64,000 nucleotides of DNA from Bacillus massiliglaciei. Its GTDB lineage: Bacteria; Bacillota; Bacilli; Bacillales; DSM-1321. How positions within the stretch are numbered: the first letter of the stretch is position 1; every line of letters begins with the position of its first letter. Under the pieces are notes generated by a model. That model was not told the origin of the DNA. It searched no databases and saw only the letters and a program-made list of their open reading frames with translations. Location of the stretch: positions 232,384 to 296,383 of the forward strand of contig NZ_LT622360.1 of NCBI RefSeq assembly GCF_900098925.1, in the 5' to 3' direction. Made by a program: the position numbers and the translations under genes. Shown piece by piece: positions 5,951 through 46,409 of this stretch.

Positions 5951-6325
5951 ATGGCAAACAATAACGGCAAAATGAGCAGAGAAGAAGCAGGACGCATGGG
6001 CGGCGAAGCAACTTCTAAAAAACATGATAAAGAATTTTACCAAGAAATCGGACAAAAAGGCGGCGAAGCCACTTCTGAGAACCATGATAAAGAGTTTTAT
6101 CAGGAAATCGGACAAAAAGGCGGTGAAACCACTTCTGAAAACCACGATAAGGAATTCTATCAGGAGATCGGGCAAAAAGGCGGCGAAGCCACTTCCGACA
6201 GCCATGATAAGGAATTTTATCAGGAAATCGGACAAAAGGGCGGCGAAGCCACTTCCGAAAATCATGATAAAGAATTTTACCGGGAGATCGGTGAAAAAGG
6301 CGGCAACGCCCGAAATAACGATTAA
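5951..6325 (+). CDS. gsiB: second GsiB-like general stress protein, 5 repeats
   Basis: A 124-residue paralogue of the upstream gene, with a 17-residue head, five 20-residue repeats and a tail ending GNARNND. Heads and repeats are nearly identical between the two copies, so the pair arose by local duplication followed by change in repeat number. AGGAGG lies 8 bases before ATG 5951. No clear separate SigB site was found in the 138-base gap, so read-through from the first promoter is likely. Confidence 0.92.
   Translation: MANNNGKMSREEAGRMGGEATSKKHDKEFYQEIGQKGGEATSENHDKEFYQEIGQKGGETTSENHDKEFYQEIGQKGGEATSDSHDKEFYQEIGQKGGEATSENHDKEFYREIGEKGGNARNND
6002..6301 (+). repeat. five 60-bp tandem units in second gsiB
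   Basis: Five in-frame 60-bp units from 6002 to 6301, very similar to those at 5603-5782. This is a likely site of slippage or unequal recombination. Confidence 0.9.
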
Positions 6326-6364: not shown

Positions 6365-6500
6365 CTTTTGTGGAAAAGAAAACCCTAGGCTAGGCCTAGG
6401 GTTCCGAAAAGCTTTCAGCGTGGTATTAAAAAAACTCTTCCATGGTGCTAAAATATTTTTGGTTCGCCAACCAAAATATCAGCATCACGGAGGAGTTTTG

Positions 6501-6983
6501 ATGTCAAAAGACACTAATAGTTTAGCACACACCACCTGGAATTGTAAGTATCATATCGTATTTGCACCCAAGTACAGAAGACAAGTGATCTATGGAAAGA
6601 TAAAAAAAGATATCGGTCAAATACTGAGAACGCTATGTGAAAGGAAAGGCGTAGAAATCATTGAAGCCACGGCGTGTAAAGACCACGTACATATGCTGGT
6701 GAGTATTCCACCCAAAATAAGTGTCTCTTCATTTGTAGGGTATTTAAAAGGGAAAAGTAGCTTGATGATATTTGATCGTCACGCCCATTTGAAATACAAG
6801 TATGGAAATCGCAAGTTTTGGTGTACGGGATATTATGTAGATACAGTGGGAAGAAACAAAAAGGTAATCGAAGAATACATACGAAATCAGATACAAGATG
6901 ATATAGTCGCAGAACAATTAAGTATGATGGAATATATTGATCCGTTCACAGGTGAGGAGGTAAAGAAAAAGAAACGAAAGTAA
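6501..6983 (+). CDS. tnpA: IS200-family transposase TnpA (HUH, Y1)
   Basis: A 160-residue Y1 HUH single-strand transposase. The opening WNCKYHIVFAPKYRRQV is typical of the family. The HUH motif is HVH in CKDHVHMLVSIPP, and the catalytic tyrosine is probably in KKVIEEYIRNQ. It is full length with no frameshift, so the copy may be active. It acts on single-stranded element ends folded as hairpins, usually at replication forks. ATG 6501 follows CGGAGGAG with a good gap. Confidence 0.95.
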   Translation: MSKDTNSLAHTTWNCKYHIVFAPKYRRQVIYGKIKKDIGQILRTLCERKGVEIIEATACKDHVHMLVSIPPKISVSSFVGYLKGKSSLMIFDRHAHLKYKYGNRKFWCTGYYVDTVGRNKKVIEEYIRNQIQDDIVAEQLSMMEYIDPFTGEEVKKKKRK

Positions 6984-25276: not shown

Positions 25277-25293
25277 TTAGTACCAGGTAATAA
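25277..25293 (+). promoter_or_regulatory. FapR operator of fabH-fabF
   Basis: TTAGTACCAGGTAATAA closely matches the FapR palindrome (TTAGTACC-core-ACTAA). FapR is released by malonyl-CoA, so fabHF rises when fatty-acid precursor is abundant. It lies 57 bases before fabH. Confidence 0.85.
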
Positions 25294-25350
25294 TATTTGA
25301 TATCAAATCTAAATCATAATAGTTCATAAATAGATTAAGGGGTTGGGAGA

Positions 25351-26286
25351 ATGAATGCTGGAATACTGGGTCTTGGCCGTTATTTGCCCGAGAAGGTCGT
25401 GACCAATGCAGATTTAGAAAAAATCATGGATACTTCCGATGAATGGATTAGAACGAGGACCGGAATTGAAGAAAGAAGAATCGCCGGAGATGATATGGAT
25501 ACTTCTGATATGGCTTTTGAAGCAGCGAAGGAAGCGATCAATCATGCTGGAGTATCAGCGGAAGATATCGATTTAATCTTAGTGGCAACTGTCACTCCTG
25601 ATCGTCCCTTCCCTTCAGTATCCTGCATGCTTCAGGAACGCCTTGGTGCAAAGAAGGCAGCAGCAATGGATATCAGTGCGGCCTGTGCCGGCTTCATGTA
25701 TGGAATGATCACGGCAAAGCAATTTATTGAAACAGGTGCCTATAAGCATATTCTCATTGTCGGAGTAGAAAAACTATCGAAAATTACGGACTGGAACGAT
25801 AGAAACACCGCTGTCTTATTCGGAGATGGAGCCGGTGCAGCGGTTATGGGTCCAGTATCGGACGGCAGAGGCGTGCTTTCATTTGAATTGGGAGCCGACG
25901 GATCTGGCGGAAAGTATTTGCTGCAGGAAGGCGATTTTATTTCCATGAATGGAAGAGAGGTATTTAAGTTTGCGGTTCGCCAAATGGGAGAATCCAGCTT
26001 AAATGTTTTAGAAAAAGCCGGCTTGACAAAAGAGGATGTAGATCTTTTAGTTCCGCATCAGGCAAATATCCGAATTATGGAGGCTTCCAGGGAAAGATTG
26101 AATCTGCCTCCTGAGAAAATGACGAAAACGGTTCATAAATATGGAAATACATCAGCAGCTTCAATACCGATTGCGATTGTAGAGGAATTGGAGGCCGGAA
26201 GAATCAAAGACGGAGACCTATTAGTTATGGTAGGCTTCGGCGGCGGTTTAACTTGGGGAGCTATCGCGCTTCGCTGGGGAAAATAG
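25351..26286 (+). CDS. fabH: 3-oxoacyl-ACP synthase III
   Basis: A 311-residue KAS III that condenses an acyl-CoA primer with malonyl-ACP to start fatty-acid synthesis; in bacilli branched primers are favoured. The catalytic triad is Cys112 in [11 protein letters not shown], His in LVPHQANIR and Asn in YGNTSAAS. It forms an operon with fabF, 23 bases downstream, behind a FapR site. Confidence 0.97.
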
Positions 26287-44767: not shown

Positions 44768-44932
44768 TTATATGCCTTTAAATCGTTTTCGGCCGTATAA
44801 GCTATAGACAATAATAAATAAGGTGATGAACAAGATAATGGAACTAAAGGTCAGAGACAGTAATTTTAAGAAGCCCAGGAGCTGCAGGAAGAGAGCGACA
44901 CACAGAAAAATAAGAAGAAGGATAGATTTCAT
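44768..44932 (-). CDS. yizD: small membrane protein YizD-like
   Basis: A 54-residue protein made of two hydrophobic helices (about 2-22 and 26-46) and a basic tail YGRKRFKGI. Named by position: in B. subtilis yizD lies between pepF (yjbG) and roxS/yjbH. Function unknown. ATG 44932 follows GGGAGG with a 9-base gap. Confidence 0.65.
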   Translation of the reverse strand: MKSILLLIFLCVALFLQLLGFLKLLSLTFSSIILFITLFIIVYSLYGRKRFKGI

Positions 44933-44998
44933 TTTCTTGGCCTCCCAAATCCAGTGTTTGTACAAATATATGGGGCAAATCGAGAAATTATGACCATT

Positions 44999-45016
44999 TT
45001 GTGAAATAGTGCACAA
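44999..45016 (+). promoter_or_regulatory. Rex-like operator
   Basis: TTGTGAAATAGTGCACAA has the TTGTG-N8-CACAA arms of Rex sites (TTGTGAA-N4-TTCACAA). It sits just before the promoter of the first RoxS-like RNA and 67 bases before the yizD start on the other strand. Rex senses NADH/NAD. Confidence 0.65.
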
Positions 45017-45021
45017 AACTA

Positions 45022-45050
45022 TTGAATAATCATCCTATATTTAATAAGAT
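45022..45050 (+). promoter_or_regulatory. promoter of first RoxS-like RNA
   Basis: TTGAAT (45022-45027), 17-base spacer, TAAGAT (45045-45050). Confidence 0.5.
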
Positions 45051-45056
45051 TATAAA

Positions 45057-45172
45057 TGTGAAATGAGTCACAAGTGAAACCCCCTTTTATTCAGATGTGA
45101 AAAATTTCTCTCAACCCCAAACCCCAAATTCGTATAAATAAAAACCCCTTGCCAGAAGGCAGGGGTTTTTCA
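45057..45172 (+). ncRNA. RoxS/RsaE-like small RNA, diverged copy
   Basis: About 116 bases ending in a T-tailed hairpin (45141-45171). It keeps the family layout: GTGAAA...TCACA at the 5' side, a C-rich loop (GAAACCCCC), the GTGAAAAATTTCTC block, and further C-rich segments (ACCCC twice) before the terminator. The order and spacing follow the downstream copy at 45317. C-rich segments of RoxS pair with ribosome binding sites. Ends are predicted. Confidence 0.65.
45141..45171 (+). terminator. terminator of first RoxS-like RNA
   Basis: AAAACCCCTTGCC and GGCAGGGGTTTTT arms (one bulge) around AGAA. Confidence 0.88.
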
Positions 45173-45212
45173 TTTTCCAGCAGAAAAGGAGCCTAAAAGG
45201 GAAAAAACTCGC

Positions 45213-45263
45213 AAAAGTGACAGAAATGTGACTAAAGAAAAAGTAAAAGTGACAATTATGTGA
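45213..45263 (+). promoter_or_regulatory. direct repeats upstream of second RoxS-like RNA, possible ResD sites
   Basis: AAAAGTGACA-N3-ATGTGA occurs twice (45213-45232 and 45245-45263), exactly 32 bases or three helical turns apart, ending 18 bases before the -35 box. B. subtilis roxS is activated by ResD; the site assignment is inference. Confidence 0.45.
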
Positions 45264-45280
45264 AATCATGAACAAGGATA

Positions 45281-45310
45281 TTGAAAGGGGGGTGCTTCAT
45301 TTGATATATT
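45281..45310 (+). promoter_or_regulatory. promoter of second RoxS-like RNA
   Basis: TTGAAA (45281-45286), 18-base spacer, TATATT (45305-45310). Confidence 0.7.
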
Positions 45311-45316
45311 CTATGT

Positions 45317-45427
45317 GTGAAGGAAATCACATAAATCAAACTTATACCCCTTTGTTTGTTTCGTGAAAATTTCTCCATTCCCTTATCCCTTAAAATCCCT
45401 GCAGTTCAAAGCTGCAGGGATTTTTTA
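45317..45427 (+). ncRNA. roxS: small regulatory RNA RoxS (RsaE family)
   Basis: About 111 bases, matching the RoxS/RsaE layout I recall: AATCACATAA, then a CAAAC/GTTTG stem displaying TACCCC, the block GTGAAAATTTCTCC, and C-rich segments before a strong terminator (45393-45426). In B. subtilis roxS lies in the same place, between yizD and yjbH. RoxS blocks translation of central-metabolism mRNAs to adjust NAD/NADH balance and is controlled by ResD and Rex. The 5' end is predicted from the -10 box. Confidence 0.82.
45393..45426 (+). terminator. terminator of roxS
   Basis: AAATCCCTGCAG and CTGCAGGGATTT perfect arms with T6 tail. Confidence 0.92.
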
Positions 45428-45512
45428 TGGTCATTTTTTTCTGAAACAGACCAACAGGGTTTCTCCAAGAATATTCGTTTGTGAAATAACCGTAAAATAA
45501 AAAAACAGCCGA

Positions 45513-46409
45513 TTATTTCGGCTGATCTCCAATATACTTCCAAAATGATCCGTATTTAGCTGGGATCTTTTGAGCAATTTGTTTTAAGACCAATTTTTTC
45601 ATTTCAAGCTCAACAGCATTTTTGGAAAGATTATAAACTAATTCAATTTCCTTCGTAGCTACAAGCCTGAATGCTTTCAAAAATTGTTCCAAAGAAGGCG
45701 GGGGTGTCGGTTCCGGCAGTTCATCCAGCATGTCTTCCAAGATATGGACATACACTTCATACGGATAAACACCAGACAGCTTAATCCCTTCTTCCTCAAT
45801 ATTTTGATTGAAGAAGACCAGTGATGGACTTTCTGTGACCTCCATTTCTGAGGTGATTTTCATATCGCATTGAAAACCTTTGGCCGCACTGGTTGACTCC
45901 ATGTCATTCAAGAATTCCGCCACATCAAGACCGGTGTTTTCTGCACATTCCGTGAGAACTTCAAGAGAAGAGATATCTTTCTTTTTAATAAATACATATT
46001 CCTGAAGTATTCTTAAAAAACGGATAGCCAGCTTCCGTCCCTGCAGTTCAGCTGCTTTAACAGCTATGGATGCAATATGTGGGGAGGTGATAGGATTTTC
46101 AAGCCACAGACTCCCGTCACAAGACATGCCCGAACGGCTGGCAGTCTTTTCCCAGCCTTGTGCAATATTTTCATAATTTTTTATTTTTGATAGATTCAAG
46201 GAAGTCAACTTCCCGCTTAATACATGGCGCAGGGAAAATAATTGTCCATATTCCATTTGTAATTTTTTAATGATTGGTTCCAAGCCCCAGCATTCTGGAC
46301 AAAGAGGATCAATAAAAACATAAATCTCCAGAGGTTTCTTGCCAATATCATAACACTGCTGTGTCTTGATCCAATCGGATACATCAAAAACTGGTTTTTG
46401 TGCGCTCAA
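45513..46409 (-). CDS. spxH: ClpXP adaptor protein SpxH (YjbH)
   Basis: A 298-residue DsbA/thioredoxin-fold protein that binds Spx and speeds its degradation by ClpXP. The CxxC-like site is in FIDPLCPECWGLEP (about residues 35-38). Start is TTG 46409, with AAAGGAG upstream, overlapping the yjbI stop by 4 bases. Spx, its target, is encoded 5 kb away in the same window. Confidence 0.95.
   Translation of the reverse strand: MSAQKPVFDVSDWIKTQQCYDIGKKPLEIYVFIDPLCPECWGLEPIIKKLQMEYGQLFSLRHVLSGKLTSLNLSKIKNYENIAQGWEKTASRSGMSCDGSLWLENPITSPHIASIAVKAAELQGRKLAIRFLRILQEYVFIKKKDISSLEVLTECAENTGLDVAEFLNDMESTSAAKGFQCDMKITSEMEVTESPSLVFFNQNIEEEGIKLSGVYPYEVYVHILEDMLDELPEPTPPPSLEQFLKAFRLVATKEIELVYNLSKNAVELEMKKLVLKQIAQKIPAKYGSFWKYIGDQPK

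Follow-up and report, generated by a model that had tools for sequence, protein, structure and literature searches.

A tandem pair of RoxS/RsaE-like small RNAs next to spxH in Bacillus massiliglaciei and related genomes

RoxS is an RNA of approximately 115 nt that adjusts central metabolism to the redox state and is induced by NO or malate, and Bacillus subtilis has been described with one roxS gene. The locus considered here, part of a 64,000-nucleotide stretch of the Bacillus massiliglaciei genome (hereafter the window), presents what looks like two such genes in succession, and raises the question of whether both belong to this family and, if so, whether they differ in the signals they answer to or the mRNAs they pair with. 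The original prediction placed two terminator-ended units between yizD and spxH, an arrangement that is confirmed by terminator prediction and by the Pfam match of the spxH product (Table 1). Both units are encoded on the plus strand, 145 bases apart, and are flanked by minus-strand genes: spxH on one side and, on the other, a small ORF in what is presumably the yizD position, which has no Pfam match above cut-off. Adjacent, on the same strand, and each equipped with its own predicted upstream elements and terminator, copy 1 (upstream, A) and copy 2 (downstream, B) are on these features predicted sibling small RNAs (sRNAs).

Table 1. Features of the tandem sRNA locus, in window coordinates.
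Feature	Position	Strand	Basis or detail
Small ORF in yizD position	44768..45016	-	82 aa from TTG; 54 aa from inner ATG
Upstream box of copy 1, TTGTGAA..GCACAA, at -59, ResD-like position	44999..45016	+	11/12 to Rex palindrome
Putative promoter of copy 1, TTGAAT-17-TAAGAT, weak -10, no TGn	45022..45050	+	Read by eye and alignment
Rex-operator-like palindrome at +1 of copy 1	45056..45073	+	11/12 consensus positions
Copy 1 (upstream, A), RoxS/RsaE-like sRNA	45058..45172	+	RF01820, model R1, fold
Intrinsic terminator of copy 1	45140..45170	+	Pattern scan and fold
Upstream box of copy 2, ATGTGAA..GAACAA, at -59	45258..45275	+	9/12 to Rex palindrome
Putative promoter of copy 2, TTGAAA-18-TATATT with TGn	45281..45310	+	Consensus scan
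Rex-operator-like palindrome at +1 of copy 2	45315..45332	+	10/12 consensus positions
Copy 2 (downstream, B), RoxS/RsaE-like sRNA	45317..45427	+	RF01820, model R1, fold
Intrinsic terminator of copy 2	45392..45424	+	Fold; absent from the pattern scan's list
spxH (yjbH) family gene, downstream, convergent	45513..46409	-	Pfam PF13743 Thioredoxin_5, 248 bits

Read directly from the sequence, copy 1 consists in order of GTGAAATGAGTCACA, a loop AACCCCCTTTTATTC, GTGAAAAATTTCTCTC and CAACCCCAAACCCC ahead of its terminator, and copy 2 of GTGAAGGAAATCACA, a loop TATACCCCTTTGTTTG, GTGAAAATTTCTCC and ATTCCCTTATCCC, again followed by a terminator. The DNA elements common to both are a TTGTGAA-type box, -35 and -10 hexamers and a TGTGA-N6-TCACA palindrome at +1, and the RNAs share a 5' stem-loop with a C-rich apical loop, a GTGAAA/TTTCTC block, further C-rich stretches and the terminator, so that the first unit does, as had been proposed, repeat the plan of the second in order. 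Both fold to the RoxS plan, with z of -4.2 for copy 1 and -6.3 for copy 2 and none of 200 dinucleotide shuffles as good in either case. The predicted folds comprise a bipartite 5' stem-loop (GAA..UUC and UCAC/GUGA) carrying CRR1 in its apical loop, free C-rich regions and a terminator; the C-runs outside the terminators are unpaired with a probability of 0.91-1.00 (0.99-1.00 in copy 1). When the RoxS stem pairs were counted on 37 copies from other genomes, 86.3% of cells were paired, compared with 80.0% after shuffling and at most 45.8% after sliding.

In a search of 901 bases against 4227 Rfam families, the RsaE model (RF01820) matched both copies at full length (1-112), copy 1 with 49.0 bits (E 8e-7) and copy 2 with 53.9 bits (E 7.5e-8). 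Neither reaches the gathering score of 79 bits, and a scan of the window at Rfam gathering scores reported neither; the covariance check of region 45000-45450 is therefore positive for both copies on E-value and negative for both on the curated threshold. Searched over all 4.14 Mb of the genome, the RsaE model gave no other match with an E-value below 2.7. A second covariance model, R1, was built from 37 copies of other genomes out of 39 dereplicated copies, the window genome's own two being left out on purpose and G003 having been removed earlier by a motif filter. R1 gives copy 1 60.5 bits and copy 2 71.8 bits in the window, corresponding to whole-genome E-values of 5.2e-7 and 5.2e-9, with no third match in the genome at E<=1. 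A weak third match within the window (25288-25387, minus strand, 20.1 bits, E 0.11) is probably due to chance. Elsewhere, RF01820 scores the downstream copies of 24 of 27 other genomes at 83-99 bits, and other single copies at spxH-bearing loci also fall under 79 bits (G058 71.5, G049 52.8).

Taken together, copies 1 and 2 are almost certainly RoxS/RsaE homologues. Since both score under the gathering threshold, they are best termed RoxS-like homologues, outside formal membership of RF01820 on present sequence evidence. The RF01820 and R1 scores bear out the claim of a tandem pair with a diverged upstream member, and the description of the second unit as a clear RoxS is half right, copy 2 being nearly as diverged as copy 1 by RF01820. 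That the likeness of the upstream unit reflects convergence or chance is extremely improbable. Copy 1 does lie under the Rfam cut-off, and C-rich sRNAs such as FsrA and CsfG of B. subtilis are alike in predicted structure, as far as the consulted part of PMC8216469 describes them, but copy 1 reaches only 15.7 bits with the FsrA model, against 49 with RsaE, and convergence was rejected on the strength of R1, which detects copy 1 despite excluding the window genome, and of the pairs that 27 other genomes carry at this locus.

Turning to control, operators were scored against the Rex palindrome, which we take to be TTGTGA-N6-TCACAA, at +1 and at the upstream box in all 28 genomes of the genus that carry the tandem pair. 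In B. subtilis, a predicted Rex site lies directly 3' of the roxS start and Rex binding is reported by EMSA (PMC5419742, consulted in part), and a putative ResD site lies at about -65, with ResDE activating roxS (PMC4409812, likewise in part). The window genome contains a Rex-type gene (PF06971, 75.1 bits). As copies 1 and 2 share one plan of box, promoter and +1 operator, they should, judging by these sites, answer to the same regulators. The different promoter that had been ascribed to the upstream unit is consequently not seen in the set of sites, both copies keeping box and operator; it is seen in the quality of the -10, which is TAAGAT without TGn in copy 1 and TATATT with TGn in copy 2. 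Copy 1's promoter was absent from the output of the promoter consensus scan.

The upstream box is retained at 9-12 of 12 positions in all 56 units of the 28 tandem genomes. It occupies the putative ResD position of B. subtilis, approximately 57 bases from the +1 operator and at the same place in the 28 genomes, and its resemblance to the Rex palindrome makes two-site Rex binding or looping conceivable. The +1 operator is well kept in the B copies (11-12/12 in 26 genomes, 10 in the window genome and 7 in G019). The A copies fall into three classes: 11-12/12 in the window genome, G009, G010, G019 and G029; 9/12 in G012 and G021, of the P. asahii group; and 6-7/12, the commonest values in shuffled sequence, in the other 21. 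A divided inducing signal, as originally envisaged, thus has more support in these 21 relatives, where the A copy has lost its +1 operator, than in the window genome, where both copies keep it. In all 21 A copies without the left half-operator, the stem bases GAAGTT/AATTTC and TCAC/GTGA are kept. The 5' RNA stem and the Rex operator share bases, and control and structure are therefore tied together in RoxS; the duplicated copy shows a way to cut this tie, the half-operator having gone while the stem was kept.

Among the mRNAs that RoxS is known to target are sucC and ppnKB. A proven target in B. subtilis is citZ, whose mRNA half-life is 3.3 min in the wild type and 9.6 min without roxS, and whose protein falls 5-fold on roxS overexpression (PMC10433868, consulted in part). 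In the window genome, copy 2 is predicted to pair with the citZ leader at -44.0 kcal/mol, a value that none of 500 shuffles reached, whichever partner was shuffled. For copy 1 the energy is -26.9 kcal/mol, and 167 of 500 shuffles of the sRNA and 103 of 500 of the leader did at least as well. That citZ ranks first among 59 gene starts for copy 1 was dropped as evidence, given how many shuffled sRNAs did as well. The sucC start ranks 59th of 59 for copy 1 and 34th for copy 2, leaving it unsupported as a shared target. A NAD-kinase search for ppnKB returned four matches, two of them above cut-off; one of these two lies in the window, and the other (L166) is diacylglycerol-kinase-like by reading of its start. 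All of these pairing energies ignore accessibility, the gene starts were called mechanically, and citZ is the one target studied in depth. The proposed division of targets has in silico support for one target, citZ, with sucC unremarkable for both copies.

The comparison with citZ was extended to 27 of the 28 tandem genomes, G024 having no citZ match, and in 23 of these 27 one copy is clearly the stronger. In the P. simplex and P. asahii groups, 22 genomes in all, the A copy is the better partner (z -3.1 to -4.5, against -0.8 to -2.7 for B). The window genome shows the reverse order (A -0.3, B -4.2). In G009, G010 and G019 both copies pair with citZ, as they do less strongly in G029.

These observations bear on another reading of the pair, namely that the siblings are redundant and serve only dosage, providing more RNA or a steeper induction in the manner of PrrF1/PrrF2. 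The copies follow the same promoter plan and, in the window genome, have the same operators; moreover, those of G009, G010, G019 and G029 pair about equally with citZ and carry the operator in every case except the B copy of G019. However, copies 1 and 2 differ strongly in their seeds, and in 21 relatives the operator differs between copies that are each conserved in their own form. We consider a dosage role on its own rather unlikely.

How widespread is the arrangement? The nearest named SpxH loci, among the best 80 of 425 in a set that may omit records very close to the window genome, belong to Peribacillus or Bacillus sp. at 81% identity, and from these relatives we infer that Peribacillus is the genus of the window genome. 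All 36 genomes of the genus contain the RNA, 28 as a tandem pair and 8 as a single copy; a profile search of the RoxS loci in all 8 revealed no buried second copy (nothing better than E 0.39). A tblastn search located spxH at the RoxS locus of each of the 28 tandem genomes, the gene being fragmented in G024 and truncated by a contig end in G008. Conversely, among the best 80 of 425 named spxH loci, every one has an R1 match. Two matches occur in 12 of the 80, of which 11 are named Peribacillus or Bacillus sp. and the twelfth is deposited as Paenibacillus sp. FJAT-29882. A single match is present in the remaining 68 (single-copy Peribacillus, Neobacillus, Cytobacillus, Mesobacillus and others), although contig ends cut a few of these loci near the RNA. 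The named genomes overlap with the 36 of the genus. L097, L119, L120, L129 and L142 are Bacillaceae-like spxH-roxS loci labelled Paenibacillus, Chryseobacterium or Pseudomonas, and are probably from mislabelled genomes.

Wider scans used stricter filters, which can miss weak second copies. On this footing, 126 of 199 sampled genomes of the order match and five have two copies, namely four of the five genus genomes sampled and G183, from another family; of 200 genomes of the class, 48 match and the window genome alone has two. The copies of the G183 pair (L160) are nearly alike in sequence, which indicates that a duplication happened there too, probably independently of the Peribacillus one. 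A further RoxS copy lies approximately 77 kb away in 6 of the 28 tandem genomes. These third copies, on the opposite strand (L059, L060, L061, L062, L064 and L161, in G007, G013, G026, G030, G024 and G033), score from 109 down to 41 bits with R1, as if some were decaying, and the four of them included in the sRNA tree group with B copies.

An SpxH tree of 35 of the 36 genus genomes (G008, with its cut locus, was left out) and four from outside joins 27 of the 28 tandem genomes and single-copy G027 as a group (support 81/74). The distribution of the tandem pair could be explained by a single gain and a single loss, and more gains may have occurred; at the G027 locus no remnant of a second copy was seen. 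The midpoint-rooted sRNA tree used 85 of 90 matches, five under 36 bits being dropped, including the third copy of G024. In it, one group (94/92) unites the A copies of 23 genomes, and another (80/80) the B copies of 24, copy 2 among them, with the four third copies included; the copies of G009, G010, G029 and G019 belong to neither.

The placement of copy 1, which sits on a long branch (0.89), is less settled. In a second sRNA tree, with four more long rows dropped, the best tree places it among the B copies (82/21), and a grouping with the A copies is also compatible with the data (p-AU 0.40). Forcing copies 1 and 2 to be sisters improves the likelihood slightly, by 0.79 units over the free search (p 0.55), so the window genome may have undergone a duplication of its own or gene conversion. 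By eye, the linker of copy 1 (TTCGTATAAATA) is of the type found in A copies and that of copy 2 (CCCTTAT) of the type found in B copies. Because the two copies carry the respective linkers of their relatives, a recent duplication within the window genome is not favoured on the sequence; the upstream position of copy 1 is also that of the A copies.

Constraint was gauged from an alignment of 21 of the 28 tandem genomes, all from the P. simplex/frigoritolerans group. Averaged over positions, the major base has a frequency of 0.97 for the A RNA and 0.96 for the B RNA, compared with 0.67 in the spacer between them; the A and B promoters reach 0.94 and 0.91, the stretch preceding the A promoter 0.92 and that following B 0.82. 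Because the sequence ahead of the A promoter is conserved as well, the 0.94 of that promoter is no evidence alone, and the 21 genomes are close kin, so that counts over them represent few independent events. By these frequencies, both RNAs are kept in the P. simplex/frigoritolerans group. The spacer also bears on whether read-through of the first terminator might yield a third RNA of approximately 370 nt with a function of its own, for which PrrH of Pseudomonas aeruginosa provides a precedent in the part of PMC4211561 consulted. The tandem order and the short distance between the units would allow it, but both units have strong predicted terminators and upstream elements of their own, and the spacer is conserved neither in sequence nor in length, ranging from 82 to 524 bases across the 28 genomes. 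Such an RNA seems very unlikely.

In our model, which we regard as probable, a tandem duplication gave rise to sibling sRNAs that are partly specialised by operator and seed. A whole roxS/rsaE transcription unit (promoter, operator, RNA and terminator) would have been duplicated in tandem, plausibly in a single old event in an ancestor of most Peribacillus, and both copies retained as sibling antisense sRNAs. If transcribed, each would repress central-metabolism mRNAs by covering their G-rich ribosome-binding regions with its single-stranded C-rich segments, under activation by ResD and repression by Rex as extrapolated from B. subtilis. In the window genome, copy 2 would hold the classical role, with its strong predicted citZ pairing, sound promoter and Rex operator, and copy 1, in which fold, operator and terminator are retained while the C-rich seeds are new, would probably act on other or narrower targets. 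In the P. simplex/frigoritolerans group the roles would be reversed, the upstream copy pairing with citZ and having lost the Rex operator; on account of that loss, its response should follow ResD-type signals and be free of NADH/Rex control.

The chief challenge to this account concerns copy 1 itself, which in the window genome could be a decaying paralogue, its promoter and seeds already lost and the copy on its way to a pseudogene, with copy 2 doing all of the work. Its weak -10, its long branch and a citZ pairing at the level of shuffled sequence all fit this reading, and single-copy G027, which falls within the tandem group, hints that loss of a copy can occur. Nevertheless, operator and upstream box are each kept at 11 of 12 positions despite only 65-71% identity to four intact A copies, a retention with a probability of approximately 0.07 for each by a simple binomial and 0.005 for both by squaring, and the bipartite 5' stem, the strong terminator and the unpaired C-runs are all kept. 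We therefore judge decay unlikely, slightly more so than a pure dosage role, and it seems likely that copy 1 is functional. Decay of copy 1 overlaps with the duplication model, which is about the pair, and the likelihoods given for these readings are not meant to add up to a whole.

A more far-reaching version of the specialised-sibling model, which we put forward tentatively as possible rather than probable, is that Peribacillus has split RoxS by signal and by target, and that the split is flipped between the P. simplex/frigoritolerans group and the window species. If true, the citZ-silencing A copy of the P. simplex group has shed its Rex operator and kept the stem that the operator DNA encodes, freeing TCA-cycle silencing in that group from NADH sensing, and the window species keeps citZ under Rex through its B copy, copy 1 having moved to new targets. 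Peribacillus offers a natural experiment on the subdivision of a conserved redox sRNA, with the window species as a swapped control.

Compared with known systems, the locus resembles RoxS of B. subtilis and RsaE of Staphylococcus aureus in fold plan, C-rich regions, spxH/yjbH locus, the box at the ResD position, the Rex-type operator at +1 and, for copy 2, the predicted citZ pairing. It differs in having tandem copies, both diverged below the curated score, and in the C-rich seeds and poor -10 of copy 1. As side-by-side homologous units the pair is comparable to PrrF1/PrrF2, OmrA/OmrB and AbcR1/AbcR2, but it is a pair of the RsaE family in Bacillaceae, and its +1 operator lies within the bases that form the 5' stem of the RNA. 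Tandem siblings are described as redundant in some pairs, largely so for PrrF1/PrrF2, and as having private targets in others, and the tandem-sRNA table of the same review, in the part available, contains no RsaE-family pair (PMC4211561). Nor did the mainly open-access literature, some of it available in part, yield a description of two RoxS/RsaE copies. A practical consequence is that curated Rfam thresholds can hide siblings, as annotation at gathering cut-offs would leave the window genome without any RoxS.

A related case may exist in Listeria. The rli61 model (RF01485), a family of its own typed as cis-regulatory, scores 31.4 bits on copy 2 and 45.4 on canonical RoxS (one of five RoxS loci), both under its cut-off of 50. 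Apparently a related RNA, rli61 may be the Listeria RoxS/RsaE filed under another name and as a cis-regulator; our literature search found no paper linking the two.

Two further features of the window deserve mention. Its sole Rfam match at gathering scores is to STnc490 (6381-6493, plus strand, 60.1 bits), directly followed by an IS200/IS605-type transposase ORF (6501-6983; NF033573, 161.9 bits), and this match to a "Salmonella sRNA" apparently reflects the 5' portion of an IS200-like element. At 5951-6325 on the plus strand is a gene for a small protein of repeated HDKEFYQEIGQKGGEATSEN units, by appearance a KGG-type stress repeat.
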